This document shows positions 39,553-56,004 of a stretch of DNA of 64,000 bases, piece by piece. The number at the start of each line of letters is the position of its first letter. Position 1 is the first letter of the stretch. Origin of the DNA: Halioglobus sp. (GTDB lineage Bacteria > Pseudomonadota > Gammaproteobacteria > Pseudomonadales > Halieaceae). The notes beneath the pieces are model-generated. The model was not told the DNA's origin. It ran no database searches and worked only from the letters and a program-made list of their open reading frames with translations. The translations under genes and the position numbers were made by a program. The stretch is taken from positions 1 to 64,000 of the forward strand of contig JAQWNG010000040.1 of the NCBI GenBank assembly GCA_029246385.1, written 5' to 3'.

Positions 39553-39707
39553 AGTAGGATGCATAATCAAATGCCCACCTGATCAGCAACCGCAGTAACC
39601 GCAGTTGTTCCGCAGGGCACCAGTACCGTCATTGGGGAAACGTCCGTCGCTCGGGAGGCACTTTTTTATAGCGACGCAGTCGTGACATTCAATTTTGCAG
39701 TGAGTGA

Positions 39708-39744
39708 TACTTGAACGCCGGCAAAACATACTGTATGTTCAAAT
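39708..39744 (+). promoter_or_regulatory. Promoter with embedded palindrome (copy 1 of shared element)
   Basis: TTGAAC at 39711-39716, 17-base spacer, TATGTT at 39734-39739. The perfect palindrome AACATAC-T-GTATGTT (39725-39739) covers the spacer end and the -10 box, where a repressor would block RNA polymerase. A second copy, same by 32 of 37 bases, lies at 47993-48029. It lies about 115 bases before the GTG of the first acyl-CoA dehydrogenase. Confidence 0.7.
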
Positions 39745-39856
39745 CCTGATTCTAGGCGAGTAAATGGCTCGCCGTTAACGTTTTCAATGCAGCGTTCTAC
39801 TTTCTTTGGCCGTCTGGCCTGTTGTCGGTAATACGCTTCACCAATGAGGTAACCCC

Positions 39857-41038
39857 GTGAGCGACCTTGAACAGTTTCGTCAGGAGACGCGAGTCTGGCT
39901 GCAGGAGAATTGTCCTGAGAGCATGCGTCAGCAGGCCAAAGGCTTTGAGGACATTTTTAATGGGGGCCGCAACCCCGAAATAACCCATCCAGAGCAAGAG
40001 CTTTGGTGCGACCGCATGGCAGCGCGTGGCTGGACTGTTCCCCACTGGCCGAAGGAATATGGTGGTGGTGGACTGAGCAAAGAAGAGGCAAACGTCCTTG
40101 CACAGGAGATGGCGGCCATCGGTGCACGCCCTGCGCTGACCAGTTTTGGTATCTCCATGCTTGGCCCTGCTCTCCTGCATTTTGGTTCTGAGGAGCAAAA
40201 GCTGGAACACTTGCCTAAAATCGTCCGCGGTGAGATTCGCTGGTGTCAGGGTTATTCTGAACCAAACTCTGGGTCAGACCTAGCAAGTCTCGCGACTAAA
40301 GCCGAAGACAAGGGTGATCATTATGTGATCAACGGCCAGAAAATTTGGACATCTTACGCAGACAAGTCTGACTGGATATTTTGTTTGGTGCGCACCGATA
40401 GCTCGGGCAGCAAGCACGAAGGCATCAGTTTTGTGCTATTCGATATGGCACAGGAAGGGGTGACGACTCGCCCTATTAAATTGATTAGTGGCAGTTCCCC
40501 GTTTTGCGAAACCTTCTTCGATAACGCGATCGCCGACAAAAAAAACCTGGTTGGCGAAGAGGGTAACGGCTGGACCATCGCCAAGTACCTGTTGACGCAT
40601 GAGCGGGAGATGATCTCTTCTTTCGGGGCTGCACCTAAAAAGTCTGTCGGGCAAGTCGCACTGGATAATATCGGAGCCGACGCCTCTGGTCGACTGTCTA
40701 GCTCAATACTGCGTCAAAATATCGCACAGTACCAGCTCGACACTATGGCTTTTGGCGCCACTATGGCGCGGGTCGGCGATGAATCAAAAGCCGGGAAGGG
40801 CCTCGGTGCGGCATCATCTATATTTAAATATTATGGCACTGAGCTAAATAAGCGACGCAATGAATTAAACTTGGCGGTGTGCGGCGAATCCGGTTTGGGT
40901 TGGGAGGGCGAAGAATACCGCCAGGGCGAGGTCAGTCGAGGCTGGTTGCGTTCCAAGGGAAATTCTATCGAGGGTGGTACCTCTGAGGTACAGCTTAATA
41001 TTATTGCCAAGCGTGTGCTCGGACTGCCCGACGCATAG
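39857..41038 (+). CDS. Acyl-CoA dehydrogenase, catalytic subunit of a likely heteromeric pair
   Basis: 393 residues from GTG 39857 (GAGG upstream). It has an N-terminal helical domain to about 115, the FAD-binding WCQGYSEPNSGSDLASL segment (about 130-146) and WTSY. The C-terminal motif is SIEGGTSEVQLNIIAKRVLGLP, with the Glu of IEGGT at the catalytic-base position. It oxidises an acyl-CoA to the 2-enoyl-CoA. The next gene is a diverged paralogue lacking that Glu, the layout of FadE26/FadE27 (ChsE4/ChsE5) and PimC/PimD pairs. It is the first gene of the block, under the shared palindromic promoter. Confidence 0.88.
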   Translation: MSDLEQFRQETRVWLQENCPESMRQQAKGFEDIFNGGRNPEITHPEQELWCDRMAARGWTVPHWPKEYGGGGLSKEEANVLAQEMAAIGARPALTSFGISMLGPALLHFGSEEQKLEHLPKIVRGEIRWCQGYSEPNSGSDLASLATKAEDKGDHYVINGQKIWTSYADKSDWIFCLVRTDSSGSKHEGISFVLFDMAQEGVTTRPIKLISGSSPFCETFFDNAIADKKNLVGEEGNGWTIAKYLLTHEREMISSFGAAPKKSVGQVALDNIGADASGRLSSSILRQNIAQYQLDTMAFGATMARVGDESKAGKGLGAASSIFKYYGTELNKRRNELNLAVCGESGLGWEGEEYRQGEVSRGWLRSKGNSIEGGTSEVQLNIIAKRVLGLPDA

Positions 41039-41066
41039 CTCCGGTTAAAGAGGGGATTAGTAAAAA

Positions 41067-42206
41067 ATGGCGTTAGTATTGAACGAAGAGCAGATAATGT
41101 TAAAGGAGTCTGCCGCTGGCTTTCTGGCGGAGAATGCTACTGTGACTCACCTGCGCGCATTACGTGACAGCAATAGCGAGCGTGGGTTCAGCGACGATGT
41201 CTGGAATGAAATGGCGCAGATGGGTTGGGCGGGTATCGCCATACCAGAGGCTTTTGGCGGTTTGGGCTATGGTTATACGGGTTTAGGCCTACTGTTGGAG
41301 CAGGCAGGGCGCAACCTCAGTGCCAGCCCTTTGCAATCTACCGTTCTGATTGCAGCAACCTTAATTGGCGAATTGGGAAGCTCGCAGCAAAAAGAGAAGC
41401 TATTGCCGGCCATTGCAGCGGGTAAGAAGTTAATTAGTCTCGGACTGCAGGAGGGGTCGCACCACACACCACATCAAAGTGCATTGAGTGCGACGTTGAG
41501 CGAGGGTGACTATATTCTTAACGGCACCAAAGTGATGGTGTTGGATGCTGTGTTTGCGCACACTTTTGTTGTCATCGCGCGCACCAGTGGGGCGCCGGCT
41601 GAGGAACAGGGATTAAGTGCCTTCCTCGTCGATGCGGGCACCGCGGGTCTGACCGTGGAGCGACGCAGCCTGGTAGATTCCCGCAGTGCAGGTGCACTGG
41701 TGTGCGACAATGTTCGGGTTCCCGCGACCAATCTTCTGGGTGCGCTCGGAAGCGCTTGGGTTGGTCTTAGTCGTGCATTGGATATTGCCAATATCGGCCT
41801 AGCGTCAGAGTTGCTTGGTGTGTCGACCGAAGTGTTTGAAAGGACTATCGCTTATCTGCAAGAGCGCAAGCAATTCGGCCGCGTGATTGGTTCTTTTCAG
41901 GGTTTACAACATCGTGCTGCGGAGCTATTTGCAGAGTTAGAGTTGGCGCGATCAATTGTATTGAAAGCACTGCATGCTATTGATGAGGACGACCCAGCGT
42001 TGCCTTTAATTGCCAGTGCGGCCAAGGCAAAGCTGTGTGAAGTGGCTCAACGTGCGACCAATGAGGCCATCCAGATGCATGGCGGCATCGGCATGACCGA
42101 TGAGTATGAGATCGGCTTTTTTATCAAGCGAGCGCGGGTCGTTCAGCACACCTTTGGCGACTATAATTATCACCTGGATCGCTTTGCTCGGTATAGTGGT
42201 TTTTGA
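41067..42206 (+). CDS. Acyl-CoA dehydrogenase, non-catalytic-type partner subunit
   Basis: 379 residues, 28 bases after the first dehydrogenase, with GAGGGG ten bases before the ATG. The fold is clear: WAGIAIPEAFGGLGYGYTGLGLLLEQAG, FGRVIGSFQGLQHRAAEL, then MHGGIGMTDEYEIGFF. Where catalytic subunits have a Y/F/I-EG-T motif, this protein has VVQHTFGDYNYH, so the usual catalytic Glu is absent. It is therefore likely the structural/FAD-sharing half of an alpha2-beta2 enzyme, as known for steroid side-chain and pimeloyl-CoA dehydrogenases. The TGA precedes the ligase ATG by 28 bases. Confidence 0.85.
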   Translation: MALVLNEEQIMLKESAAGFLAENATVTHLRALRDSNSERGFSDDVWNEMAQMGWAGIAIPEAFGGLGYGYTGLGLLLEQAGRNLSASPLQSTVLIAATLIGELGSSQQKEKLLPAIAAGKKLISLGLQEGSHHTPHQSALSATLSEGDYILNGTKVMVLDAVFAHTFVVIARTSGAPAEEQGLSAFLVDAGTAGLTVERRSLVDSRSAGALVCDNVRVPATNLLGALGSAWVGLSRALDIANIGLASELLGVSTEVFERTIAYLQERKQFGRVIGSFQGLQHRAAELFAELELARSIVLKALHAIDEDDPALPLIASAAKAKLCEVAQRATNEAIQMHGGIGMTDEYEIGFFIKRARVVQHTFGDYNYHLDRFARYSGF

Positions 42207-42234
42207 GCATGCGGTAGAGACGGAACCCGCAATA

Positions 42235-43947
42235 ATGAAAGCAGAACTCAAACAATTTGATGAAGTGGTTGCCAGCCTCACCGCAGTCGGTCAGGGGTTT
42301 GAAGTGAACACAGTGGAGCTGAGGGGTGTCCCATACCGCAACTTTGCCGCGTTGCCTGCCAATCTGGCGCAGTTCTTTACAGTCATGTTGCAGCACGCAG
42401 AAAAGGATTTTGCGGTTTACTTAAAAGAGCGCTACACCTTCGGTCAAGGCTACCAGCGCAGTTGTGAATTTGGCGCGGCGTTAGTAGAGCGCTATGGTCT
42501 GGTTAAGGGCGACCGCGTTGCCATCCTGAGTCGCAACAATCCGCAGTGGATGATGGCCTTTGTTGGCATCACTTCTGTGGGCGGGGTGGCCGTACCAATG
42601 AATGGTTGGTGGACCACAGAAGAGCTGGACTACGGTTTTTCAGACAGTGGTGCAAAGATTGTAGTCGCCGATCGCGCGCGGGTGCAGCGTCTCACGCCTA
42701 TCGCAGAAAAACATGGTCTACAAATTATCGCCATTGATGACTGTGACGGCCTCGGCGTTGAGTGTACGTCATTTGACGAATTATTGTGGGAGTTTTCCGG
42801 TCGCAGTATGCCTGAGGTGACGGTTACTCTAGAAGACCACGCGACCATTATGTATACCTCTGGCTCTACCGGTCACCCTAAAGGCGCGCTGTCTAGCCAT
42901 AGAGGTGTTTTGGCGGCACTTTACAGTTGGATGTGTATGGGGGTTGCTACCAAAATGACAGGGGCTCAGGTTGCTGGAGATGAGGGGCTGCCGCCCTGCG
43001 CGCTGGTGACAATTCCATTGTTTCACTGTACTGGAAGCCACTCAGCTTTCATGCTGTCTTTAGTGGTAGGTCGAAAAATGGTGATTATGCATAAGTGGGA
43101 TGCAGAGGAGGCCCTGCGTCTGATCGAGGCGGAAAAAGTGACATGGTTCAATGGCGTTCCGACGATGTCGGCGGAATTGCAGGCGGCCGCGAAGACCACG
43201 GCTCGTGATATTACATCGCTGACGGAGATTATGGCGGGCGGTGCGGCGCGGCCTCCGGAGCAGGTAAAAAAAATCAGTGGTACGTTTAAAAATTCTACTC
43301 TGGGGATTGGTTACGGGCTGACGGAAACGAATGCATTGGGGGCGGTGAATGCCGGCGCCTTTTACGTTGCTAGGCCTGACAGTGCGGGCCGGGTTGTACC
43401 TCCGGTGACCGAATTTCGTGTTGTCTCAGAAGAGGGCCTTGAGCAGCCTGTAGGTGAACGGGGTGAACTGTGCATCAAGTCTCCTGCCAATATACTGGGT
43501 TACTGGAACAAGCCCGAAGCCACAGCAGAAGCCTTTGTTGACGGCTGGTTTCACACCGGCGATATCGCCTATCTGGACGAAGACGGATTTCTCTATATCG
43601 TTGATCGGATGAAAGAAATCATTATTCGCGGGGGTGAAAACATCAGCTGCATTGAAGTGGAGGCCGCTATTTATTTGCATTCGGATATCCTCGAAGCGGC
43701 AGTATTTGGGCTGCCTGATGAACGTCTTGGCGAGATCGTAGGTGCCGCTGTGGTGCTGCGAGAAGACGCTCACCTCGGCGCCGACGAACTGCGTATATAC
43801 TTGGCGAGTCACCTAGCGCCCTTTAAGATACCCGCTCACATATGGTTTTCTGCTGAACAGCTGCCGCGCATCGCATCAGGCAAAATTTTTAAACGTCAAA
43901 TAAAAGCGGACTACGCCGCTGAACTGGTTCGTAATAATCAGCTATGA
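42235..43947 (+). CDS. Acyl-CoA ligase (AMP-forming)
   Basis: 570 residues from ATG 42235. The open frame reaches back to 42100 inside the previous gene but has no ribosome site there. Adenylation motifs: IMYTSGSTGHPKGAL (about 205), GYGLTETNA (about 360), GWFHTGDIAYLDEDGF and DRMKEIIIRGGENIS, with the final K in SGKIFKRQIK. It activates a free carboxylic acid with ATP and CoA. The gene order FadE-FadE-FadD matches fadE26-fadE27-fadD17 of Mycobacterium tuberculosis, which suggests a branched or cyclic acid, but the ligase itself does not reveal its substrate. Confidence 0.9.
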   Translation: MKAELKQFDEVVASLTAVGQGFEVNTVELRGVPYRNFAALPANLAQFFTVMLQHAEKDFAVYLKERYTFGQGYQRSCEFGAALVERYGLVKGDRVAILSRNNPQWMMAFVGITSVGGVAVPMNGWWTTEELDYGFSDSGAKIVVADRARVQRLTPIAEKHGLQIIAIDDCDGLGVECTSFDELLWEFSGRSMPEVTVTLEDHATIMYTSGSTGHPKGALSSHRGVLAALYSWMCMGVATKMTGAQVAGDEGLPPCALVTIPLFHCTGSHSAFMLSLVVGRKMVIMHKWDAEEALRLIEAEKVTWFNGVPTMSAELQAAAKTTARDITSLTEIMAGGAARPPEQVKKISGTFKNSTLGIGYGLTETNALGAVNAGAFYVARPDSAGRVVPPVTEFRVVSEEGLEQPVGERGELCIKSPANILGYWNKPEATAEAFVDGWFHTGDIAYLDEDGFLYIVDRMKEIIIRGGENISCIEVEAAIYLHSDILEAAVFGLPDERLGEIVGAAVVLREDAHLGADELRIYLASHLAPFKIPAHIWFSAEQLPRIASGKIFKRQIKADYAAELVRNNQL

Positions 43948-43995
43948 CTTAATGATAGTCTAGTGACAGTCCGACAATGAAGAAGGAGAGAGACA

Positions 43996-45213
43996 ATGGA
44001 TTTAGGCGTTAGCGCAAAACTGGTACCGCTGCTGGAAGAGGTGCGAAGCTTTATTGAGAAGGAGATTTTGCCGGTCGAGGTCGAGTTCTATGAAGATATT
44101 GCAGTGGGTGATCGATGGGAGTGGACTCAGCGTCAAACTGACATTCGGGAAGGCCTGAAAACCAAAGCAAAAGCACGGGGGTTATGGAATTTCTTTCTTA
44201 CTGAAGGTGACGCCGGTTCTGGCCTGAATACAGTGGAGTACGCTTATCTTGCCGAGGAAATGGGCAAGTCACACTTGGCTGCAGAAATATTTAACTGTGC
44301 CGCCCCGGATACGGGGAATATGGAAGTGCTACATAAATACGGTACCGAGGATCAGAAAAAGCAGTGGCTGGAGCCGCTGTTAAACGGTGATATCCGTTCT
44401 GCTTTTTCTATGACCGAGCCCGGAGTAGCATCATCGGACGCGACCAATGTCTGCACGCAGGCAGTACTCGATGGTGACGACTGGGTTATTAACGGAGAAA
44501 AGCACTATGTGTCTGGCGCCGGCGATCCGCGCTGTAAGATAATGATCGTAATGGTAAAAACCGAGCCGGACGCACCCAAACATCAGCAGCAGTCACAGAT
44601 ACTCGTTCCAACAGACACCCCCGGATTTGAAAACCTGCGCGGCATGAATGTGTTTTCCATGGATGATGCGCCCCATGGTCATATGCATCAGAAATTTACC
44701 AACGTGCGCGTGCCCAAAGAAAATATTCTGTTAGGATCTGGTCGTGGTTTTGAGATTTCTCAGGGTCGACTGGGACCAGGCCGCATACACCACTGCATGC
44801 GCGCCATCGGTGCTGCAGAAAAAGCATTGGAGCTCCTTTGCCAACGGTCGATGTCGCGTGTCGCTTTTGGTAAGCCGCTAGCGCGTTTGGGCGGAAATAT
44901 CGACATCATCGCTAATGCGCGAATGGACATTGAGCAGGCTCGTCTGCTGACGTTAAAGACCGCTTGGATGATGGATAACGTGGATGCGAAAGAGGCCCGC
45001 GTATGGATTTCGATGATCAAGACGGCGGTGCCGAATATCTCTATCCGCATTGTGGACGAGGCAATTCAAATGTTTGGCGCACTGGGAGTGAGTCAGGATA
45101 CGCCGCTGGCCCATATGTATATGTCTCAGCGCACGCTGCGCCTAGCTGATGGTCCTGATGCAGTGCACCGCATGGTGGTGGGCCGCAATGAGCTGAAACA
45201 ATATATCCAATAG
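43996..45213 (+). CDS. Acyl-CoA dehydrogenase, ACAD10/11-like
   Basis: 405 residues with an AAGGAG ribosome site. Core: FSMTEPGVASSDATNV (about 136-151), HYVSGAGDPRCK, LGPGRIHHCMRAIG, and the C-terminus LADGPDAVHRMVVGRNEL. The DGPDxVH end, with Asp instead of the usual Glu, is typical of the ACAD10/11-like subfamily, which prefers long or branched substrates. It follows the ligase by 48 bases and is probably in the same transcript. Confidence 0.88.
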   Translation: MDLGVSAKLVPLLEEVRSFIEKEILPVEVEFYEDIAVGDRWEWTQRQTDIREGLKTKAKARGLWNFFLTEGDAGSGLNTVEYAYLAEEMGKSHLAAEIFNCAAPDTGNMEVLHKYGTEDQKKQWLEPLLNGDIRSAFSMTEPGVASSDATNVCTQAVLDGDDWVINGEKHYVSGAGDPRCKIMIVMVKTEPDAPKHQQQSQILVPTDTPGFENLRGMNVFSMDDAPHGHMHQKFTNVRVPKENILLGSGRGFEISQGRLGPGRIHHCMRAIGAAEKALELLCQRSMSRVAFGKPLARLGGNIDIIANARMDIEQARLLTLKTAWMMDNVDAKEARVWISMIKTAVPNISIRIVDEAIQMFGALGVSQDTPLAHMYMSQRTLRLADGPDAVHRMVVGRNELKQYIQ

Positions 45214-45401
45214 CCGTGAAGTACACCTACGCGCAGTAATGACTTCAAACGCTCCTGCTGACGCTGGGCAAGACGCTTGGCCATTTAAAAGCCTTTGCTG
45301 ACGCTACGGCATCTTTACCGTTATGACTTAAAAATTTGCTTTAAATTGCGGTTGGACTGATGTAGGTTCTAGAGACTACTAATAAGAATGGCCTCAATCG
45401 T

Positions 45402-47870
45402 ATGAATATAGCTTTAAAGCGGTGCGCGCCGTTTGTCGCCCTGATGGCTTTTTCCTCTGCGACAGTGGTTTATGCTGCTGTTGCAGCCAATTCGCTTGAA
45501 GAAATCATCGTAACGGCCAGTAAGCGCGAAGCTTCCCTTATGGATACTGCGGCGTCGATCAGCGCTTTCGATAGTGCTACGCTGGATCAGCTGGGCATAA
45601 CCGGCAGCCAAGACCTCACGGCGCATACGCCCTCCCTCTCAATTACAACGTTTAGGGTCAGCATCCGTGGAGTAGGGCGACCTAATCTGGCGGTAGGTTC
45701 AGAGCCGGGGATCGGCATTTACTGGGACGGGGTTTACAATACTGAAAACGGTATATTCAACTACTCCGAGTTCATGGATATTGAGCGCATTGAGGTGTTG
45801 CGGGGGCCGCAGGGCATTCTCTATGGGCGCAATTCTGTTGGCGGCGCCATAAGCTTTATCAGTAAGCGACCTAGCGAGGAGTGGGAAGGTAACGTCACAG
45901 CGCAACTTACCAATTACGACGGCAGACTCATTCAGGGGTTGGCTAGTGGCCCGATCACTGACACATTAAGTGTGTTGGCGGGTGCGTCTTATATCAGCCA
46001 CGAGGGATTCCAGAAAAACACCTACAACGGCAAGGACTATGAACAGGACAAAACGCCCTATGGTACGGTGAGTCTGGAGTATGAGCCCAATGATCGATGG
46101 AATACCGTGCTCAAGGTCATAGGCGTAGACCGCGATTACCGGCAGGGAAACGGCTACATACTGGAGCCTTTTGCACGTGGGTTAGCGCAACCCGTAGCGA
46201 ATGATACTACGGGTGAGACCATTAGCTTGCCGGGTATGTTCCCCGCGCAGAACTTCGTCAATATGCGCCAGGGCCTAGCCATAGATAATCCCGCGCTGCA
46301 AGATGAAAATAAAGTAACACAAGACCGTAATCCAAATCTCAAGAACCGGCGCTGGGCGCTTTTTCTGAATAGCGAATACAGCGCAGACACCTTCACCCTC
46401 AAGTATACCGGGGGGTATAACAAATACTGGTTTGATTCGACAATTGATGCCGACGCTAGCGTTCAGGCGGACTCGGGCGTCGACTGGACCAAGCTCAATG
46501 CCCAAGTCGGAACTCTTGCTATTCCTGTCGCTAATCTCCCCGGCTTCCCAGCCCCAGAGAATCCGATTACCGGCGCCGATATGACCTTTAACGTCGACCA
46601 GGAGGCGAGATTCAGCTCCCACGAGTTGCAGTATTCGTCGGAATGGGATGGTGATTTCTCGCTGTTAGGCGGACTTTATTACTATCACAGCGATGAATCG
46701 CAGGTCGTGGATTTTCGAGAGTGGAATGATAAGTTAATGGAGACGTACCAATTTCTCGTCGATCTTGCTAATGCGGTTGGCGCCGATGTGGCCAACGTTG
46801 TAAGTAAAGACAACTATCTTTATCGTGGCGAAGCCACCGTAGATACCCGTTCATATGCATCCTATGGTCAGCTATCGTGGGATCTGTCGCCCCAAACTGT
46901 TCTGACCGCCGGTCTGCGCTATTCGTATGACGAAAAAAAGGGCAATGATAATACCTTTGTGCAGTATGTGGGTGATCCTGATAATCCGACCGTGTACAGG
47001 AATGAAGATGACAGTTGGGATAAGTGGACTTGGCGCTTGGGTGCAGACCATTATTTGACGCCGGATCAGTTTCTGTATGCCTTCATCGCGACGGGTTATC
47101 GTTCCGGTGGCTTTAATTTTCAGAAACCCAGTGCGGAAACGTTGGTAGACGTGGTGAAACCGGAAGAAATTATCTCCTATGAGATAGGCTATAAAGGGTC
47201 AACATTTGAAAACCGGTTGAATGTGGGTGCCTCTGTGTATTACTACGACTATACCGAGTTACAGGTGATTAAGCAGGACGTGGAAAACGGCATTGCTCTG
47301 AACACGTTTGAAAATGCCAAAGACGCAGAAGCTGCCGGTCTGGAACTGGACTTTAGAGCCCTGCCGATACCGAGTATCATGCTTAGCGGAACGTACTCGT
47401 ACAATTTTACGGAGTTTAAAACTTTTTCCAGCAAAGATGCCAACGCATGCACCTTGGGGCCCTATGCAGTGGGCGATACTCAGAATCCGCTATGCACGGA
47501 CGAGCAAGATCTCCAAGGCAATGAATTTGTGTTAACGCCCAAAAACAAGGCGTCTCTGAACGTCACTTATTTTTGGCAGATGTTTGATTTCGATTGGTCC
47601 GCTACTGGCACTTATGCTTACACCGGCAAACAGTGGATGTCGATTTTCAATGATCCGCAATATGATAGAGTCGACAGCTATGACCGTTGGGATGCGCGTG
47701 TGAATATGGCCGCCCTCGATCAGCAATGGGAGGTGACTGCATTCGTCAAAAATATCGCCGATGATAGGAATATCATTAGCCGAGGCCGGCCCAGTACTGT
47801 GACCCAAAACGCAATATCTGTCCTGTCTGATCCCCGTGTTTATGGGTTGAAACTTCAGTATAACTTTTAA
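45402..47870 (+). CDS. Large TonB-dependent receptor of the catabolic block
   Basis: 822 residues. Signal peptide to about 26 (YAA-VAA), TonB-box-like LEEIIVTASKREASLMDTA, plug domain (40-165, IERIEVLRGPQGILYGRNSVGGAISF) and barrel to the terminal YNF. It belongs to the sphingomonad-type receptors often found next to degradation genes for hydrophobic compounds, without carbohydrate (SusC) features. It probably imports the substrate of this block across the outer membrane. The weak ribosome site and 188-base gap suggest its own promoter. Confidence 0.88.
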   Translation: MNIALKRCAPFVALMAFSSATVVYAAVAANSLEEIIVTASKREASLMDTAASISAFDSATLDQLGITGSQDLTAHTPSLSITTFRVSIRGVGRPNLAVGSEPGIGIYWDGVYNTENGIFNYSEFMDIERIEVLRGPQGILYGRNSVGGAISFISKRPSEEWEGNVTAQLTNYDGRLIQGLASGPITDTLSVLAGASYISHEGFQKNTYNGKDYEQDKTPYGTVSLEYEPNDRWNTVLKVIGVDRDYRQGNGYILEPFARGLAQPVANDTTGETISLPGMFPAQNFVNMRQGLAIDNPALQDENKVTQDRNPNLKNRRWALFLNSEYSADTFTLKYTGGYNKYWFDSTIDADASVQADSGVDWTKLNAQVGTLAIPVANLPGFPAPENPITGADMTFNVDQEARFSSHELQYSSEWDGDFSLLGGLYYYHSDESQVVDFREWNDKLMETYQFLVDLANAVGADVANVVSKDNYLYRGEATVDTRSYASYGQLSWDLSPQTVLTAGLRYSYDEKKGNDNTFVQYVGDPDNPTVYRNEDDSWDKWTWRLGADHYLTPDQFLYAFIATGYRSGGFNFQKPSAETLVDVVKPEEIISYEIGYKGSTFENRLNVGASVYYYDYTELQVIKQDVENGIALNTFENAKDAEAAGLELDFRALPIPSIMLSGTYSYNFTEFKTFSSKDANACTLGPYAVGDTQNPLCTDEQDLQGNEFVLTPKNKASLNVTYFWQMFDFDWSATGTYAYTGKQWMSIFNDPQYDRVDSYDRWDARVNMAALDQQWEVTAFVKNIADDRNIISRGRPSTVTQNAISVLSDPRVYGLKLQYNF

Positions 47871-48188
47871 GCTTGCCATCGGCTTGCTTTGATTCGCTCA
47901 GAGTATTGCCGATTTCGCAGTGATTATGCCTCAGGCTAGGGTTTCTGAAGTCAGCCGGTCCTCCCCAGTCTCCAACGGGCTGGCAGATAAAGTACTTGAA
48001 CGCGCTAAATACATACTGTATGTTCAAATTCTTTTTTTGAGCCGAGTTGTGCCATCTCTATCTATTCTCGGTAGACACATTGGTATGTTGTTTCTTGCTT
48101 AGCGCACAGCGTGCGTTGGCGCTCAAACAGCGCAGCTCGATGATGATTACCCGTCTCTGTTGTAAAAAAAACCGACTAGGAGCACACC
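47871..48188. other. Intergenic region with second shared promoter
   Basis: 318 bases between the TonB receptor and the MaoC gene. The promoter/palindrome at 47993-48029 is the only feature I can support. About 160 bases of leader follow it before the ATG. Confidence 0.5.
47993..48029 (+). promoter_or_regulatory. Promoter with embedded palindrome (copy 2 of shared element)
   Basis: TTGAAC at 47996-48001, 17-base spacer, TATGTT at 48019-48024, and the palindrome ACATAC-T-GTATGT at 48011-48023 over the -10 region. It aligns without gaps to 39708-39744. It drives the MaoC-SDR-thiolase genes. TTGAAC and the later GTTCAA also form a wide inverted repeat. Confidence 0.7.
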
Positions 48189-48653
48189 ATGGCAGTAAAA
48201 ATCGTACCCAAGGAAGAAATGTTGGACGCTATCGGCACTAAGTTTGAGCCTGGCGAGTGGATTGAGGTGACACAGGACCGCATCAATGTTTTCGCCGATT
48301 GCACCGAAGATCACCAGTTTATTCATATAGACGAGGAAGCTGCAAAGAACACACCCTTTGGCGGCACTATCGCTCATGGATTTTTGACCCTATCTCTTCT
48401 CTCTAAGTTGATCGAAGGCAACGGCGTAATTCCTGAAAATATTGTGATGGGACTCAACTATGGTTTTGACAAGGTGCGTTTTCTGGCACCAGTGAAGTCC
48501 GGCAAGCGCGTCCGTGCGAACTCAGAAATCGCCGATATCGTTCGCAAAGACGAGAATCGTTTTTTAATTAAGCAGATTGTCTCCGTTGAGATCGAGGGCG
48601 AGGAGACGCCGGCACTGGTGGCAGAGTGGTTGAGTATGGTCATCGCCGGCTGA
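48189..48653 (+). CDS. MaoC-family enoyl-CoA hydratase
   Basis: 154 residues with AGGAG before the ATG. A single hot-dog domain with the hydratase-2 motif: DRINVFADCTEDHQFIHIDEEAA, whose Asp and His form the catalytic pair, and GGTIAHGFLTLSLL. It adds water to 2-enoyl-CoA giving the (R)-3-hydroxyacyl-CoA. It fits between the dehydrogenases and the SDR, and the three following genes complete a beta-oxidation cycle. Confidence 0.9.
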   Translation: MAVKIVPKEEMLDAIGTKFEPGEWIEVTQDRINVFADCTEDHQFIHIDEEAAKNTPFGGTIAHGFLTLSLLSKLIEGNGVIPENIVMGLNYGFDKVRFLAPVKSGKRVRANSEIADIVRKDENRFLIKQIVSVEIEGEETPALVAEWLSMVIAG

Positions 48654-48694
48654 TCAGTTGGGCTATTTATTTTTTTATTAAGAGGGGTTCAGTA

Positions 48695-49612
48695 ATGTCT
48701 ATTCGTTATGACGGTAAAGTCGCAATCGTGACCGGTTCTGGTCAAGGGTTGGGTCGCAGCCATGCCATCGAACTGGCTAAACGTGGAGCAAAGGTTGTAG
48801 TCAACGACTTAGGCGGTGGAGTCGACGGTTCCGGTGGTTCATCCGAGGCAGCCAAGGCTGTGGTGGCAGAAATCGAGGCGTTAGGGGGGGAAGCTATCGC
48901 CAACGGCGCCAATGTCGCCAAATATGACGAAGTCGAGGCCATGGTCAAGCAGGCCGTTGACAAATGGGGTCGCGTGGACATTCTGGTGAACAATGCGGGC
49001 ATTTTGCGCGACAAGAGTTTTACCAAGGGTGACTTAGACGACTTCAAACTCGTGCTTGATGTGCATCTGATGGGCAGCGTGAATTGCACTAAGGCATGTT
49101 GGGATATCATGCGTGATCAAGCCTATGGTCGCATTGTCGTTACGACATCTTCGTCAGGTCTATATGGTAACTTTGGCCAGACCAATTACGGTAGCGCGAA
49201 AATGGGCGTTATTGGAATGATGAATACGTTGACCCAGGAAGGTGCGAAGTACGATATCCGCATCAACGCTCTCGCACCGACTGCGGGCACGCGTATGACT
49301 GAAGGTCTGATTCCTGAAGAAGCGTTTGCACTGTTGACGCCAGAGACGGTCACGCCTGCGGTACTGTATATGGTTAGTGATGACGCTCCCAATAAGACGA
49401 TTATTTGTGCCGGCGCAGGTGCCTACTCCGTGGCCAAGATTGTTGAGACTGATGGCGCTTGGCTGGCACCCGAAGATCAGACTCCAGAGGGTATCGCGGC
49501 CAATTGGGATGCGATTACGTCCCCGGAGGGTCAAGCACAGCCTCAAGCGGGTTTTGAACAGACGGTAAAATTCACTGGCAAGGCTATGGAAGGCCTTGGC
49601 CTAAATAAGTAA
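48695..49612 (+). CDS. SDR, (R)-3-hydroxyacyl-CoA dehydrogenase-like (MFE-2/HSD17B4 type)
   Basis: 305 residues from ATG 48695 (AAGAGGGG upstream; the open frame starts at 48626 inside the MaoC gene). Motifs: TGSGQGLGRSHA (about 13-24), VVNDLGGGVDGSG, NNAGILRDKSF and catalytic YGSAK (Tyr/Lys about 165-169). The two inserted stretches DLGGG and LRDKSF are typical of the peroxisomal multifunctional enzyme type 2 dehydrogenase, which pairs with a MaoC-like hydratase exactly as here. Product: 3-ketoacyl-CoA. Confidence 0.9.
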   Translation: MSIRYDGKVAIVTGSGQGLGRSHAIELAKRGAKVVVNDLGGGVDGSGGSSEAAKAVVAEIEALGGEAIANGANVAKYDEVEAMVKQAVDKWGRVDILVNNAGILRDKSFTKGDLDDFKLVLDVHLMGSVNCTKACWDIMRDQAYGRIVVTTSSSGLYGNFGQTNYGSAKMGVIGMMNTLTQEGAKYDIRINALAPTAGTRMTEGLIPEEAFALLTPETVTPAVLYMVSDDAPNKTIICAGAGAYSVAKIVETDGAWLAPEDQTPEGIAANWDAITSPEGQAQPQAGFEQTVKFTGKAMEGLGLNK

Positions 49613-49663
49613 ACATTGACTCAAGGGGCCTTCATTGGCGCCCCGTTACTGGAGAGAACAAAT

Positions 49664-50842
49664 ATGAGAGAAGCCGTTATTGTATCCACCGCTCGCACGC
49701 CGATTGGCAAGGCCTTTCGTGGCGGTTTTAATAATCTTGGCGGGGCAACGTTGGGCGCTGCGTCCGTGGCTGAAGCCGTAAGGCGTGCCGGTATCGATCC
49801 GAGTCGCGTTGACGACGTGATAATGGGTAGTGCTTTGCAGCAGGGTACCACCGGTTCTAATATCGCACGTCAGATTGCGTTGCGTGCGGGGCTGCCGATT
49901 ACCACGTCTGGTATGACGATAGATCGTCAGTGCTCGTCCGGCCTGATGGCGGTAGCGACCGCTGCAAAGCAGGTCATGTACGACGGTATGGATTGTGTGA
50001 TCGGCGGTGGACTGGAGTCTATCTCGCTTGTGCAGAATGAACACATGAATCTGCACCGCATGGTAGACGACGAGTTGATGGCGATTGAGCCGAATATGTT
50101 TGTGCCGATGTTGCAGACAGCGGAAATCGTTGCTGAGCGTTATAAAATTTCTCGCGAGGCAATGGACGAGTATGGACTGCAGTCACAGGAGCGCACCGCT
50201 GCAGCTTATGCCGCCGGTAAATATGCCGATGAGCTAGTAGATGTTACTTGCAAACGTATCGCTTGGGACAAAGCGACCGGCGATTCTTCAGAGGTTGAAG
50301 CTACCGTGTCTGCTGACGAAGGTTTGCGTGGCACAACATTGGAAGGCCTCCAAGGATTAAAGACTGTTATCGAAGGCGGCACCATTACCGCGGGCAATGC
50401 ATCCCAACTCTCTGATGGCTCTTCCGCACAGTTGATTATGGACTCAAAAGTTGCCGCAAGCGAGGGTCTGCAGCCGTTGGGAATCTACCGCGGTATTGCT
50501 GTTGCTGGCTGCGCCCCGGATGAGATGGGGATTGGACCAGTGTTTGCTGTACCCAAGCTGCTTAAGCAGCACGGCCTGTCAGTTGATGATATTGGCTTGT
50601 GGGAACTTAACGAAGCCTTTGCTGTGCAGGTGATCTACTGTCGTGACCAATTGGGCATCGACAATGATAAACTCAACGTAAACGGCGGTGCGATTTCGAT
50701 CGGTCATCCGTATGGCATGAGTGGATCGCGCATGGTGGGTCACGCATTGATTGAGGGTAAGCGTCGCGGTGTTAAATATGTCGTTGTAACGATGTGTGTT
50801 GGCGGCGGCATGGGTGCGGCAGGATTATTTGAAGTCGCGTGA
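49664..50842 (+). CDS. Acetyl-CoA C-acyltransferase (thiolase)
   Basis: 392 residues from ATG 49664 with GGAGAG upstream; the frame extends back to 49616 without support. Active site: nucleophilic Cys90 in [29 protein letters not shown] and [11 protein letters not shown]. It thiolytically cleaves 3-ketoacyl-CoA. The Gly-Tyr in HPYG in place of the usual HPLG suggests a specialised substrate. A strong terminator follows at 50856-50881. Confidence 0.92.
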
Positions 50843-50925: not shown

Positions 50926-51903
50926 ATGAAAGCAGTGGCATGTAAAGAGCACGGTCTTCCTAATAAATTGGAGCTAGTGTCGGACTGGCCGGAACCACCA
51001 GTCGGGGAACACGACATCCTGATTGATGTTAAAGCGGCGGGTCTAAACTTCCCTGATGTGCTGATGATACAGGGCAAGTATCAGTATCAACCTGATCTGC
51101 CCTTCATTCCAGGGGGGGAATGTGCCGGGATAGTGGCTGCAGTCGGCGCTAAGGTCAGCCGCTTCAAATTAGGTGACAAGGTGCTATCTGCCGGTGGTTC
51201 CGGCGCTTTTTGCCAAAAAATCGCGGTGAATGAATTTGGCGCTTTTCCAATGCCTGATGGGCTGAGCTTCGAACAGGCTGCTGGCGTTAGCATCACATAC
51301 TTTACGTCCTACTACGCGCTCAAACAGCGTGCCAATATTCAGCCGGGCGAGACTCTGCTGGTGCTGGGCGCAGCGGGAGGTGTCGGCACCAGCGCTATTG
51401 AACTTGGTAAACAAATGGGCGCCAAGGTAATTGCTGCCGCCAGTAGCGATGAGAAACTGGCGCTGTGCAAGACATTGGGCGCTGATGAGCTTATTAATTA
51501 TAACGACGTAAACTTGAAGGACGCGATCAAGGCGTTGACCGAAGGAAAGGGTGTGGATGTGGTTTATGACCCTGTCGGAGGTGATTATGCAGAGGCTGCT
51601 CTGCGCGGCATGGCTTGGAAAGGCCGCTACCTCGTGATTGGCTTTGCGAGCGGCCCCATTCCGAAGATTGCACTTAATCTTACGTTGCTCAAAGGGTGCT
51701 CCATCGTGGGGGTATTTTGGGGTCGTTTTACAGGCGAGGAGCCTGAAGTTAATTTGAAGAATATCGAGGAACTCTGGGCGCTTTTTGCCAGCGGCAAAAT
51801 AAAGCCTGTTGTAACGGACAGTTTTCCTGTCGAGCAGTACGAAGAAGCCTTTAAATGTATGATAGAGCGTCGTGCGCGTGGCAAGGTCATCATCACGATG
51901 TAG
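50926..51903 (+). CDS. NADPH:quinone oxidoreductase-like (zinc-free MDR family)
   Basis: 325 residues with GAGGA before the ATG. VLVLGAAGGVGTSAIELGKQMGA (about 145-167, read with LL at the start) is the nucleotide-binding loop. The N-terminal catalytic domain lacks the zinc Cys/His ligands of alcohol dehydrogenases. GLNFPDVLMIQGKYQ is the quinone-reductase signature. It may reduce a 2-enoyl or quinone intermediate. It is the first gene after the terminator, followed nine bases later by an Fe-alcohol dehydrogenase. Confidence 0.85.
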   Translation: MKAVACKEHGLPNKLELVSDWPEPPVGEHDILIDVKAAGLNFPDVLMIQGKYQYQPDLPFIPGGECAGIVAAVGAKVSRFKLGDKVLSAGGSGAFCQKIAVNEFGAFPMPDGLSFEQAAGVSITYFTSYYALKQRANIQPGETLLVLGAAGGVGTSAIELGKQMGAKVIAAASSDEKLALCKTLGADELINYNDVNLKDAIKALTEGKGVDVVYDPVGGDYAEAALRGMAWKGRYLVIGFASGPIPKIALNLTLLKGCSIVGVFWGRFTGEEPEVNLKNIEELWALFASGKIKPVVTDSFPVEQYEEAFKCMIERRARGKVIITM

Positions 51904-51912
51904 GTATGGACT

Positions 51913-53079
51913 ATGCAGGATTTTGAGTTCAATACGGTTGCTAGAATAATCAACGGTCCGGGTAGCGCGCTAGAGCTAGAAGTGCAATGCCGGCATCTAA
52001 AAATAGAACGTCCCTTGCTGGTCACCGATCCGGGTTTGATGTCTATTGGGCTGATACAGCCGATTCTTGCTGCGCTAGAAGAAGCAGGGCTTTCTGCGCT
52101 AGTGTTTGATCAGGTGCGTGAGGATCCGCCGGAAGTTACGGTGCAGGCGGCTAGCGACCTGGCGCGAAGTGGTAACGTTGACGGCGTTATAGCGGTCGGG
52201 GGCGGCAGCTCAATGGATGTGGCCAAAGTGGTGGCAGTGTTGTTAGGTGGAAGTCAGGGGCTCTCTGATATCTACGGAGTGGGTCAGGTAGTCGGTGGTA
52301 GGTTGCCTTTGGTTTTAGTTCCCACGACGGCAGGAACCGGTTCCGAGGTCACACCGGTGGCAGTCATTACTACGGGTGAGACGACCAAGGCCGGCGTTTC
52401 GTCGCCGGTGTTGTTGCCGGATGTGGCGGTGTTAGATGCTGCACTCACGTTCGGGTTGCCCCCTACCATTACCGCTATGACGGGTGTTGATGCGATGGTT
52501 CACGCCATCGAAGCTTATACTTCCCGCCACAAAAAAAACCCTTTGTCTGACAACTTGGCGGTTAAGGCTTTAACGCTATTATCGCGTAATATTCGTGCCG
52601 CGGTGCACGACGGTGGCAATAGTGAAGCGCGAGGGAATATGCTTTTGGGTGCCTGTTTAGCCGGTCAGGCATTTGCGAATGCCCCAGTCGGGGCAGTGCA
52701 TGCGCTGGCCTATCCGCTGGGCGGGCATTATCACATTCCTCACGGCTTAAGTAATTCATTGGTATTGCCTGCGGTGTTAGAGTTTAATGCGTCGCACGCG
52801 GATGACCTCTACGCGGACTTAGCGGAGGTGGTGATTGGAGCCCCCATCGCGGGGAGCGCGAGTGCGAAAAGCGCCGCATTGATCGCCGCACTGCGGCAAC
52901 TTGTAGACGATGTTCAGTTGCCTGCTACCTTGCAACAGGCAAGAGTGAAAGAAAGCGATCTGGAAATGTTGGCCACTGATGCAATGTTACAGCAGCGCCT
53001 GCTAATGAATAACCCTCGAGAAGTGTCTTATGAAGACGCACTAGCGATTTATAAAGCGTCTTATCGCGGTGCCGCATGA
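51913..53079 (+). CDS. Iron-containing alcohol dehydrogenase
   Basis: 388 residues. GGGSSMDVAK (97-106) and PTTAGTGSE (138-146) bind NAD(P). Metal ligands are at D193, H197, H263 and H277 (DAMVHA, GAVHAL and IPHGLS). It oxidises an alcohol or reduces an aldehyde formed in the pathway. A short TAGG-like site and tight spacing indicate one transcript with the quinone reductase-like gene, and its stop overlaps the thioesterase start by four bases. Confidence 0.9.
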   Translation: MQDFEFNTVARIINGPGSALELEVQCRHLKIERPLLVTDPGLMSIGLIQPILAALEEAGLSALVFDQVREDPPEVTVQAASDLARSGNVDGVIAVGGGSSMDVAKVVAVLLGGSQGLSDIYGVGQVVGGRLPLVLVPTTAGTGSEVTPVAVITTGETTKAGVSSPVLLPDVAVLDAALTFGLPPTITAMTGVDAMVHAIEAYTSRHKKNPLSDNLAVKALTLLSRNIRAAVHDGGNSEARGNMLLGACLAGQAFANAPVGAVHALAYPLGGHYHIPHGLSNSLVLPAVLEFNASHADDLYADLAEVVIGAPIAGSASAKSAALIAALRQLVDDVQLPATLQQARVKESDLEMLATDAMLQQRLLMNNPREVSYEDALAIYKASYRGAA

Positions 53080-53504
53080 ACAAGGACGCACCGCCCAGCC
53101 GAGACGACTATAAAGTATTTTATCCTATTTCGACGCGCTGGTCCGACAACGATGTTTATGGCCATGTGAATAACGTCGCCTACTATGCATATTTTGATAC
53201 CGCCGCTAACCGTTATCTCATTGAAGAGGGCGGTCTGAATATAAGTGACGGGACTGTGGTCGGCTATGTGGTGAGTTCGGGGTGCAATTATCATGCGCCT
53301 ATTGCCTATCCTGAGCCAGTAGAGGCCGGCTTGCGTGTAGACAGGCTCGGAAACAGCTCTGTGCAATATGGTATTGCTATTTTTAGAGAGGGTGAGCAGG
53401 TCGCAGCTGCACATGGTCACTTTGTACATGTCTTTGTCGAGCGAGCGGAAAATCGTTCAGTGCCAATTCCGCAAAACTTGCGGGCAGCATTGGAGCGACT
53501 GTAA
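53076..53504 (+). CDS. Acyl-CoA thioesterase (4-hydroxybenzoyl-CoA thioesterase family)
   Basis: 142 residues, ATGA overlap with the Fe-ADH gene. The hot-dog fold begins TRWSDNDVYGHVNNVAYYAYFD (about 19-40), with the catalytic Asp in DVYGHVNN. It hydrolyses acyl- or aroyl-CoA, which may release CoA from dead-end intermediates. It is the last gene of the rightward block; the next gene is convergent. Confidence 0.9.
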   Translation: MNKDAPPSRDDYKVFYPISTRWSDNDVYGHVNNVAYYAYFDTAANRYLIEEGGLNISDGTVVGYVVSSGCNYHAPIAYPEPVEAGLRVDRLGNSSVQYGIAIFREGEQVAAAHGHFVHVFVERAENRSVPIPQNLRAALERL

Positions 53505-53563: not shown

Positions 53564-54766
53564 TCAGCGGTCGTTGATGACTAAAACTACCCATGCAATA
53601 AAGAGTACCGACGTGCTAAACAGCGGCGCTAAAGGGCTGTGAAATTCATACAACGCACCGGCGCACACAGGGCCGAATGCAAAACCAATCGCGGGACAGG
53701 AGCTTACCAGTCCCGCCGCTGCACCTTGTTCCTCTGCCGACACTGCCAGCGAGGCACCACCGGCAATTGATGGCATACACATTGCCATTCCTATTCCAAG
53801 AAACGCCATCCCAAGCGCGAGCACCATAAAAGTCTCGAAACTGGCAATCACCGCTGAGCCTACTATCATACTTAACAAACCGATGCGTACGAAGTGCGTG
53901 GGTCTTAACTGCATCCGCTGCATCACGGTGATTTGTGTTAGGAAAGTAAAGATAGCGCAGACCATCAATGCGCCGCCCGTCATTTGCGCCGTCTCGATGC
54001 CACTGAGATTAAGTTTGTCTTGCAACTGGAAGCCCAGGGTTTGCTGTATACTAGAAAACCCAATGAATAGACTCACGGCAGTGATTAGCAGCAACGCAAT
54101 GCGCTTATCACTGTAGCGAAGTTTTTGTGAGGGTTCGCGTTTGGTGAATTGCACGCCTGGCGCTGTCGGCAACTTCCGCCATACCACCACGGCGGCTGCA
54201 CTGGCCAATCCGGCGGCAAAATATAATGGCGCTAGCAGCCCGAAGGTAGCGAGCGCGCCACTCACTGCAGGCCCAAGAATGGCACCCATACTGCTTGCTG
54301 TGCCAAGGCGGGCCATAGTTTTTGTGCGCTCATCTCTAATGGTGTTGTCAGCGGCATAGGCCGCGCTAGCAGGCGCAGTGGCGGACATGACGATCGATTG
54401 ACAGCAGCGCGTTATCAGCAGCACAGCATAGAGCAATGCGCCGCTAAGCAGGCCGGTCATTCCCGCGAGGAATACGCTGGTAAAAAGCACGGTGCCGACC
54501 GTGTATCCCAGTAGCCCCGTGATCATAATGGGTTTGCGCCCAACGTGATCACTAAGGCGACCCCAATAGGGCGCTGCAAGTCCGAAAATCAACGCTGATA
54601 ATGCGATGATAGACGTGATTTGTAATTCCCCAAGCCGTACTTCACGGCCTAAAGGCGCAAGGATAGCGAACACCAACGACTGTCCCATCCCGGTGGACAT
54701 AAGCGCCAGAATGAGAACAGTCAGCTGTTGACGAGTCAGTTGGCCTGACAGCGGCGGGCCATTCAT
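53564..54766 (-). CDS. MFS transporter
   Basis: 400 residues with 12 predicted helices. The MFS loop-2/3 motif is GRLSDHVGRKPIM near 69-81, and an arginine-rich counterpart follows the sixth helix. The drug:H+ antiporter-like N-terminal half may export a toxic intermediate or import an acid. The ATG lies six bases after the preceding dehydrogenase stop, so it is the last gene of the leftward operon. Confidence 0.85.
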   Translation of the reverse strand: MNGPPLSGQLTRQQLTVLILALMSTGMGQSLVFAILAPLGREVRLGELQITSIIALSALIFGLAAPYWGRLSDHVGRKPIMITGLLGYTVGTVLFTSVFLAGMTGLLSGALLYAVLLITRCCQSIVMSATAPASAAYAADNTIRDERTKTMARLGTASSMGAILGPAVSGALATFGLLAPLYFAAGLASAAAVVVWRKLPTAPGVQFTKREPSQKLRYSDKRIALLLITAVSLFIGFSSIQQTLGFQLQDKLNLSGIETAQMTGGALMVCAIFTFLTQITVMQRMQLRPTHFVRIGLLSMIVGSAVIASFETFMVLALGMAFLGIGMAMCMPSIAGGASLAVSAEEQGAAAGLVSSCPAIGFAFGPVCAGALYEFHSPLAPLFSTSVLFIAWVVLVINDR

Positions 54767-54772
54767 GCAGAA

Positions 54773-55972
54773 CTACTTGAGTTCAGACGAAGATTTTTCC
54801 AGCACCCGGCGCGCGACGATCAGTTGTTGTATTTGTTGCGTACCCTCGAAGATGTCCAAAATCTTGGAATCGCGCGCAAATTTTTCCAATAGAATATTTT
54901 CGCTATAACCAAGGCTCTGGCACAGAGCAACGCAGCGCAGGGTAATATCGTTCCCCACGCGACCGGCTTTTGCTTTGCACATTGACGCTTCCATAGAGTT
55001 AGGTATTTTGTTGTCTGCCATCCAAGCGGCTTTTAACACCAGTAATCTGGCGCCGTGCCATTCAGCTTCCATTTGGCACAATTCCGCTTCCACTGCAGTG
55101 AGGTTGGCCGGTTTCTTGTCGAATTTCAGTTCCACACCCTCCTCTTTTAGTAGCTCACGAGACATATCCAGAGCAGCACGCGCCGTGCCTATCGCCATCG
55201 CTGCGACCGGCGGGCGCGTGTTGTCAAAGGTTTGCATAACACCCCCAAACGCTTTCTTGCGGCCCTCCGCATCAGTTGCCAATTCTGCGCTGCCAAGAAT
55301 ATTAGTTTTGGGAATTCTGCAGTCATTAAAGCTGATCGCCGCTGTATCAGACGCGCGTATGCCAAGCTTGTGTTCTAATCGAGTGACTTCGCATCCGGGC
55401 GTACCCTTTTCGACAATGAAGGATTTGATGGCGGCTTTACCCAGCGATTTGTCCAGCGTAGCCCAGACGACCAGCGTGTCAGAGCGCTCGCCATCGGTGA
55501 CATAAATTTTCTCGCCATTGAGCACCCATTCGTCGCCATCCGCCACTGCTGTGGTGCTGATGCTGGCAGAATCCGAGCCTGTGCCCGGTTCCGTAATGCA
55601 CATCGCAGCGTAGCTGCCGCCATACCTCTCTACTTGCTCAGGTGTCCCTACCGCTGTAATCGCGGCGTTGCCCAAGCCGCTGCCGGGCATGGCTAAAAAT
55701 AGTCCAACATCGCCCCAACACAGGCCAAATAAGCCCACTACGGCGCCCATGTTGCCACCATTCACAACCGTGCCTGCTGGAATATCAACCTTTGGGCCAG
55801 AGGGATTAGAGCGCGCACCGCCGATCAATTTGGCAACCTCTTCCATTTCCTTGGGGTAGGTGTGTTCCGCTTTGTCATACTTGCGCGAGTAGGGCCGCAT
55901 CATGTGTTCGGCCAACATCATGACCTGTCCGAATGTTTCTTCATGCTTTTTACTGAGTTCGAGATTAATCAC
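54773..55972 (-). CDS. Acyl-CoA dehydrogenase
   Basis: 399 residues from GTG 55972 with AGGAG nine bases upstream. Core: MCITEPGTGSDSASIS (about 124-139) and the C-terminal DIFEGTQQIQQLIVARRVL with the catalytic Glu in FEGT. It is similar in plan to medium-chain dehydrogenases. It lies 32 bases downstream of another dehydrogenase in the same operon, again suggesting paired or sequential oxidation. Confidence 0.9.
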   Translation of the reverse strand: MINLELSKKHEETFGQVMMLAEHMMRPYSRKYDKAEHTYPKEMEEVAKLIGGARSNPSGPKVDIPAGTVVNGGNMGAVVGLFGLCWGDVGLFLAMPGSGLGNAAITAVGTPEQVERYGGSYAAMCITEPGTGSDSASISTTAVADGDEWVLNGEKIYVTDGERSDTLVVWATLDKSLGKAAIKSFIVEKGTPGCEVTRLEHKLGIRASDTAAISFNDCRIPKTNILGSAELATDAEGRKKAFGGVMQTFDNTRPPVAAMAIGTARAALDMSRELLKEEGVELKFDKKPANLTAVEAELCQMEAEWHGARLLVLKAAWMADNKIPNSMEASMCKAKAGRVGNDITLRCVALCQSLGYSENILLEKFARDSKILDIFEGTQQIQQLIVARRVLEKSSSELK

Positions 55973-56004
55973 GGGTTTTTCTCCTGAATTCGAAAGTCAT
56001 AGGG

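Follow-up and report, generated by a model that had tools for sequence, protein, structure and literature searches.

Repressors of the TetR type that act on lipid-metabolism genes, such as KstR, KstR2, PsrA, and DesT, are homodimers of chains of about 200 amino acids (aa), which sit on palindromes and are released by acyl-CoA or fatty acid. A different architecture was described for Mce3R of Mycobacterium tuberculosis, an autoregulated double-TetR repressor binding asymmetric sites; the report calls this architecture infrequent and describes Mce3R as the first structure of a double TetR (PMC11667970). According to the same report, its operator consists of two non-palindromic sites of 25 base pairs (bp) located 53 bp apart (PMC11667970), and its regulon is reported to include the acyl-CoA dehydrogenase genes fadE17 and fadE18 (PMC10843139). 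Here, we analyzed a stretch of 64,000 nucleotides from Halioglobus sp. (contig JAQWNG010000040.1, positions 1 to 64,000; hereafter the window), in which two copies of a 37-bp element, sites A and B, stand before the two halves of a catabolic gene cluster. From sequence comparisons, we propose with good confidence that both sites are operators of one regulator, an unlinked protein with two TetR domains in a single chain (double TetR), which would repress both halves.

The double TetR has 441 aa, and the TetR_N profile matches two stretches of it (82.6 bits). Its gene lies outside the window (G000:C41:22170-23489, corresponding to L166:9168-10493 on the minus strand; genomes, loci, genera, and families are referred to by our own numbers beginning with G, L, g, and f, respectively). 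As far as Mce3R is described in the two reports above, both proteins are alike in having two TetR domains per chain and a similar length; as predictions for the protein studied here, acyl-CoA dehydrogenase genes as part of the regulon, an asymmetric operator, and autoregulation may be further points of likeness. The operators differ, since Mce3R uses the two spaced 25-bp sites, whereas here one compact near-palindromic site covers the presumed −10 region. When the double TetR was compared with Mce3R (PDB 9b7y) by phmmer, only residues 30–85 were aligned (E 1e-4), i.e. one DNA-binding domain, and Mce3R was not among the matches of a double-TetR profile at 1e-8. Because the alignment is limited to one DNA-binding domain, the likeness to Mce3R is taken as one of kind rather than of orthology. 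With KstR, KstR2, PsrA, and DesT, the proposed regulator would share the repression of lipid genes from an operator over the promoter, and release by acyl-CoA is proposed here as well. In contrast to these homodimers on palindromes, it is one chain of 441 aa for which the symmetry of the operator appears dispensable. The literature searched on double or tandem TetR proteins and on Halieaceae regulators, judged from listings, contained nothing on this protein or motif, and a text search for the core sequence gave nothing on the element, judged by titles. The proposed regulator, its operator, and their small set of target operons concern a lipid-degradation cluster that occurs in the majority of genera of this widespread marine family, and nothing of this was found in the literature searched.

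The 37-bp element in the window and in the Halieaceae

Site A is located at 39708–39744 on the plus strand, 112 bases 5′ of the start of the acyl-CoA dehydrogenase (ACAD) gene ACAD_L (39857), and site B at 47993–48029 on the same strand, 159 bases 5′ of the start of a MaoC-type hydratase gene (48189). The sequence of site A is TACTTGAACGCCGGCAAAACATACTGTATGTTCAAAT, i.e. TACTTGAACGC(CGGCAAA)ACATACTGTATGTTCAAAT, with TTGAAC at 39711–39716, TATGTT at 39734–39739, and the operator core at about 39723–39744. Site B reads TACTTGAACGCGCTAAATACATACTGTATGTTCAAAT, i.e. TACTTGAACGC(GCTAAAT)ACATACTGTATGTTCAAAT, with TTGAAC at 47996–48001 and TATGTT at 48019–48024. An earlier reading of the window made without database searches (hereafter the sequence-only reading) had described two near-identical elements with a perfect palindrome, and both points were borne out: the sites agree at 32 of 37 positions without a gap, each has TTGAAC and TATGTT separated by 17 bases, and each contains ACATAC-T-GTATGT, a perfect palindrome of 13 bp. 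The number of diverged spacer bases, given as seven in that reading, is five.

A search of all 45 contigs of the genome (3,315,667 bases in total) for TTGAAC-N9-ACATACTGTATGTTCAA, allowing up to three mismatches, returned sites A and B only, and the reversed control gave no match; the pair therefore exceeds chance, and the many unrelated copies that would have spoken against the sequence-only reading did not appear. The palindrome by itself is less distinctive than the full element. With up to one mismatch it gave seven matches in the genome, four of which are sites A and B on both strands and three lie at other places (control: two), and with up to two mismatches it gave five matches in the window, a number also reached in 2 of 100 shuffles. 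The relaxed core with up to two mismatches was matched 24 times in the own genome versus 14 times in the control, and besides A and B none of these matches had the full layout as judged by sequence context. The ATACT in the −35 region of site A (39707–39711) recurs in the operator at 39728–39732, 21 bases or about two helical turns further on, and this repeat is a possible second contact; its counterpart at site B is GTACT.

The distribution of the element was analyzed in 140 genomes of the family Halieaceae representing 28 genera. The full element with up to three mismatches is present in 91 genomes from 24 genera, with one to four copies per genome, and the reversed pattern was found in none. 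The closest relatives of ACAD_L belong to Halioglobus, Haliea, Kineobactrum, Halieaceae, and unclassified Gammaproteobacteria. In all 16 nearest ACAD_L loci (L008–L023) the element is located 5′ of the orthologue with 0–3 mismatches, and a second copy follows downstream in six of them, several loci being too short to tell. It is absent from the 64 remaining ACAD_L loci (L024–L087); a match with six mismatches in L080 was discarded as not credible.

The gene context was laid out for 48 loci, comprising 8 of the 80 ACAD_L loci and 40 additionally fetched ones, with at least two contigs represented twice. In these loci, the sites face ACAD_L, ACAD3, the MaoC gene, a paralogue of the ACAD pair, or genes for a luciferase-like oxidoreductase or a nitronate-monooxygenase-like protein, the single exception being the site in L149, which lies at a contig end. 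Unbroken clusters (e.g. L012–L016) have one site, while split or interrupted clusters have a separate site for each part, and in L154, where the second half has the opposite orientation, its site is turned around as well. Family conservation and gene context thus support the earlier description of the sites as regulatory elements before two halves of one catabolic cluster. The suggestion that one regulator controls both halves gains support from the way the sites follow the parts of the cluster even when inverted, and a single TetR-type regulator very probably acts on both halves. Two GNAT-type genes near some sites (c35, c62) were considered and are not regulators.

A double TetR as candidate regulator

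For a set of 12 genomes, a scan with the TetR_N profile revealed open frames of 426–563 aa with paired TetR_N domains in 11; for the twelfth (G027), no pair was among the matches listed, and the family screen for the double TetR found none there either. Within the family, the double TetR occurs in 105 of 140 genomes, namely in 81 of the 91 with the element and in 24 of the 49 without it. When only the 57 genomes with at least 95% completeness are considered, it is present in all 43 genomes carrying the element and absent from 9 of the 14 lacking it (Fisher 2e-7, relatedness ignored). All eight genomes of genus g10 have neither the element nor the double TetR, and all of them keep the MaoC gene.

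Physical linkage in two other families is what we regard as the strongest evidence for assigning the element to the double TetR. In a sample of the order, 22 of 390 genomes have a double TetR, ten of them outside the family. The double TetR gene sits with the cluster in seven of these ten genomes, and the element is present in six of the seven. For G208, the gene is divergent from ACAD3 and the genes of two alcohol dehydrogenases (ZADH, FeADH) and a thioesterase (TE), and the element in between agrees at 20 of 22 core bases. In f41, it adjoins FeADH and TE in six of nine genomes; the element occurs on the fetched stretch in five of these six, standing 5′ of ACAD_L in four, while the stretch of G391 ends there. 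G492 shows linkage to the cluster, but no site reaching 12 bits. In the own genome, the double TetR gene adjoins a thioesterase gene and is near aceK and a gene for a luciferase-like oxidoreductase; in G056, like genes follow the element, and a 20-kb stretch (L131) contains both a site and the double TetR gene.

Possible autoregulation was examined at the promoter of the double TetR gene itself. The relaxed asymmetric core CATACTNNNNGTTCAA, searched with one mismatch over the collected loci, matched upstream of this gene in several genomes. In 27 of 31 family genomes, ATACTNNANGTTCAA with up to 2 mismatches in 12 is located upstream of the gene on the sense strand, often as AAAAAATACTTAAAGTTCAAAT positioned 17 bases 3′ of a TRGACA-like box. 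The similarity to the operon consensus was matched by at most 1 of 100 shuffles in 26 of the 31 genomes, whose promoters are related by descent and not independent. When 1,070,171 bases of collected loci, a set enriched in these very regions, were scanned, 32 distinct matches with at least 12 bits were obtained, consisting of 16 double-TetR promoters, six cluster sites (two of them A and B), and ten others. A scan of upstream regions meant as a control was contaminated by true sites and serves as a lead only.

Several results weigh against the double TetR as regulator of the element. Ten genomes with the element gave no match for the protein, every one of them being less than 95% complete, and 24 of the 105 double-TetR genomes lack the full element, i.e. 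two of g27, which have a degenerate site, and 22 of g22. The recognition helices of the double TetR are nearly unchanged in nine element-less g22 genomes that were aligned, and seven g22 operons without the motif, six of them from genomes with the double TetR, have another palindrome 5′ of ACAD3, clear in four and weaker in three. The related site at the own double-TetR promoter, ATACTTAAAGTTGGAA, is weak, as 12 of 100 shuffles equal it, and therefore rests on its relatives; those of G001, G004, G010, and G048 are weak as well (equaled by 16–25 of 100 shuffles). Upstream of the double TetR gene of the nine f41 genomes, no site of the family form was found (best 4–5 mismatches), and in G334, G353, and G443 neither linkage nor a site was found in the 20 kb fetched. 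Also, the reading of TTGAAC/TATGTT as a promoter is weak. For g22, all nine element-less genomes examined retain the related site at the double-TetR promoter, so that what changed there seems to be the operon rather than the regulator. Because these sites were found in the same genomes, the doubt arising from the unchanged helices is mostly lifted.

Another explanation would be that a regulator of a type other than TetR reads the element and that the double TetR is a neighbor or co-regulator. The double-TetR genomes without the element, the nearly unchanged helices in g22, and the missing family-form sites in f41 would suit this explanation, and only TetR proteins were screened as regulators. 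We nevertheless consider it unlikely, as the site at the double-TetR promoter is kept where the g22 operon site was lost, linkage of its gene with the cluster is seen in two further families, and the shared TetR proteins L242 and L181 fail co-occurrence. Besides the double TetR, the TetR proteins above the Pfam cut-off common to G000, G099, and G060 are L241, which is SlmA, L242, and L181 (39%). L181 was found in just 32 of 140 genomes. L242 is present in 26 of the 43 near-complete genomes with the element, leaving 17 without it, and in 8 of the 14 without the element.

That the local TetR encoded at 57117–57800 (minus strand; TetR_C_30, PsrA-like) represses both halves is very improbable. This protein had been the first candidate of the sequence-only reading; its gene is only 9 kb from site B, it is part of a run of SDR (short-chain dehydrogenase), TetR, ACAD, ACAD, and MFS genes with a lipid-type context, and it occurs together with the element in all 18 genomes of the own genus. 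However, relatives are present in only 21 of the 140 family genomes, and it is missing from 71 of the 91 element-bearing genomes, among them 33 of the 43 with at least 95% completeness. This distribution speaks against the local TetR as general regulator of the element. It probably controls its own run, which extends over 53564–58621 on the minus strand beside carAB, and is kept mainly in the own genus.

Shape of the operator, promoter match, and proposed mechanism

The palindrome pointed out in the sequence-only reading is perfect in both sites, yet it appears inessential, since its right arm varies across the family (GTATG, GTAAG, GTAGG), the presumed sites at the double-TetR promoter are asymmetric, and two genomes of g27 have the degenerate site CATACTTAAAGTTCAA 5′ of ACAD_L. 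Among 81 unique sites, the base facing a left-arm A is T in 67, A in 9, and G in 5. The near-invariance of TTGA, CATACT, and GTTCAA in these 81 sites is partly a product of how the sites were selected; the AAA preceding CATACT and the ATAC preceding TTGA show strong conservation in them, though unconstrained in the search. On these sequences, the conserved core of the operator looks asymmetric, and a perfect palindrome appears not to be required. Such dispensable symmetry would fit better to a single chain whose two DNA-binding domains differ than to a symmetric dimer.

The alternative palindrome of g22 is approximately AATGRCATAA..TATGCCATTATA (L205–L207 and L212–L215, weaker in L205, L213, and L215) and suggests that control of this operon has been rewired. 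In g3, the corresponding promoter position (L209:5861, plus strand) is occupied by TTGAAACAAAATAATACCTGAGGTACGTTCAAG with the palindrome TACCT-G-AGGTA; the three g3 genomes, which are 60–88% complete, gave no match for the double TetR.

With respect to the promoter, TTGAAC and TATGTT at a distance of 17 bases match 8 of 12 sigma-70 positions as counted by hand, which is below the threshold of nine of the promoter scanner, so that the pair was not listed. Around site A, the scanner listed four other promoter-like matches, of which one with 9/12 (39682–39711) overlaps the site; at site B, no promoter-like match was listed. Of the combined promoter/operator proposed earlier, the promoter part is weak. 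The least credible explanation is that no operator is present and that common descent or gene conversion has kept simple promoters similar. Although TTGA and TAnGTT are retained at the 17-base spacing, bases not needed by a promoter are strongly conserved, among them the AAA and ATAC mentioned above, which the search pattern did not constrain; the promoter match is poor, and the element is rare within a genome.

From the results obtained at the sequence level, namely the sites, their conservation, the gene context, co-occurrence, the site at the double-TetR promoter, and linkage, we infer binding, repression rather than activation, the inducer, and the transcription starts as follows. Each site would overlie the presumed −10 region that serves one of the two halves of this beta-oxidation-type cluster. 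The double TetR would act as a single-chain pseudo-dimer, one of its two non-identical DNA-binding domains reading ATACT and the other A.GTTCAA on the adjacent turn, and would block transcription when bound to the site. Its own gene would likewise be repressed via the related site in most of the family. The protein may be released by an acyl-CoA intermediate of the pathway, whereupon both halves would switch on together, plus the TonB receptor between them if co-transcribed.

In a wider sense, we see an even chance that this gammaproteobacterial double TetR, perhaps independent of Mce3R in origin, serves specifically to switch a conserved regulon for lipid/isoprenoid catabolism in marine bacteria. 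This regulon would comprise the ACAD pair, MaoC, SDR, and thiolase genes, and in some genera also genes for the luciferase-like oxidoreductase, HMG-CoA reductase, or alkyl sulfatase. As the unlike domains would read ATACT and GTTCAA, operators could drift between palindromic forms (operons) and asymmetric forms (own gene). The natural series of operators from palindromic to asymmetric offers a means to test DNA reading by a single-chain double TetR.

Genes of the cluster and further sites

All genes of the cluster are encoded on the plus strand. Site A is followed by ACAD_L (39857–41038), ACAD_S (41067–42206), the AMP-binding acyl-CoA ligase gene LIG (42100–43947), and ACAD3 (43996–45213), a third ACAD gene, which directly follows the site in G208 and part of the g22 genomes. 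The listed open reading frame of LIG starts inside ACAD_S (overlap 42100–42206), and the true start is probably later. Between the two halves lies TBDR2 (45402–47870), encoding a TonB-dependent receptor; a homologue (63–75% identical) is found at the same place in the own-genus loci L009–L011 and L155–L157, and none between the halves in L012–L016. Site B is followed by the MaoC-type hydratase gene (48189–48653), SDR1 for a short-chain dehydrogenase (48626–49612), THIO for a thiolase of the acetyl-CoA C-acyltransferase type (49616–50842; 611 bits versus a cut-off of 615, PRK07108), ZADH of the zinc-type alcohol dehydrogenase/quinone oxidoreductase family (50926–51903), FeADH for an iron-type alcohol dehydrogenase (51913–53079), which is the gene adjoining the double TetR gene in six genomes of another family, and TE for a 4HBT thioesterase (53076–53504), where the conserved run ends.

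For ACAD_L, ACAD_S, and the ligase, PimC/PimD (pimeloyl-CoA dehydrogenase) and CasG (steroid-24-oyl-CoA synthetase) are the best or second-best NCBIfam families, the PimC large subunit being the top match of ACAD_L and the PimD small subunit that of ACAD_S. Every score is far under the curated cut-off, with 290 of 624 bits for ACAD_L/PimC, 214 of 653 bits for ACAD_S/PimD, and 399 of 750 bits for LIG/CasG.

Further sites were observed before other genes. In five g22 loci (L132, L135, L143, L151, and L153, gene families named from L132), the element is located 5′ of the nitronate-monooxygenase-like gene, divergent from an AAA ATPase-type gene, and in four of the five an HMG-CoA reductase-type gene comes next. 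A strong site (30 bits) is present 5′ of an alkyl sulfatase gene in G001 (L170:131), and likewise a site 5′ of a similar-sized gene in G004 (L171:132). Sites were also found 5′ of ACAD genes in G058 and G139, which like the G001 site belong to the ten other matches with at least 12 bits, and a like-placed site in G060 is located 5′ of a similar-sized gene. In G060, the palindromic ATGACATACTGTATGTCAAAAT at L247:3045 stands 5′ of a sulfatase gene.

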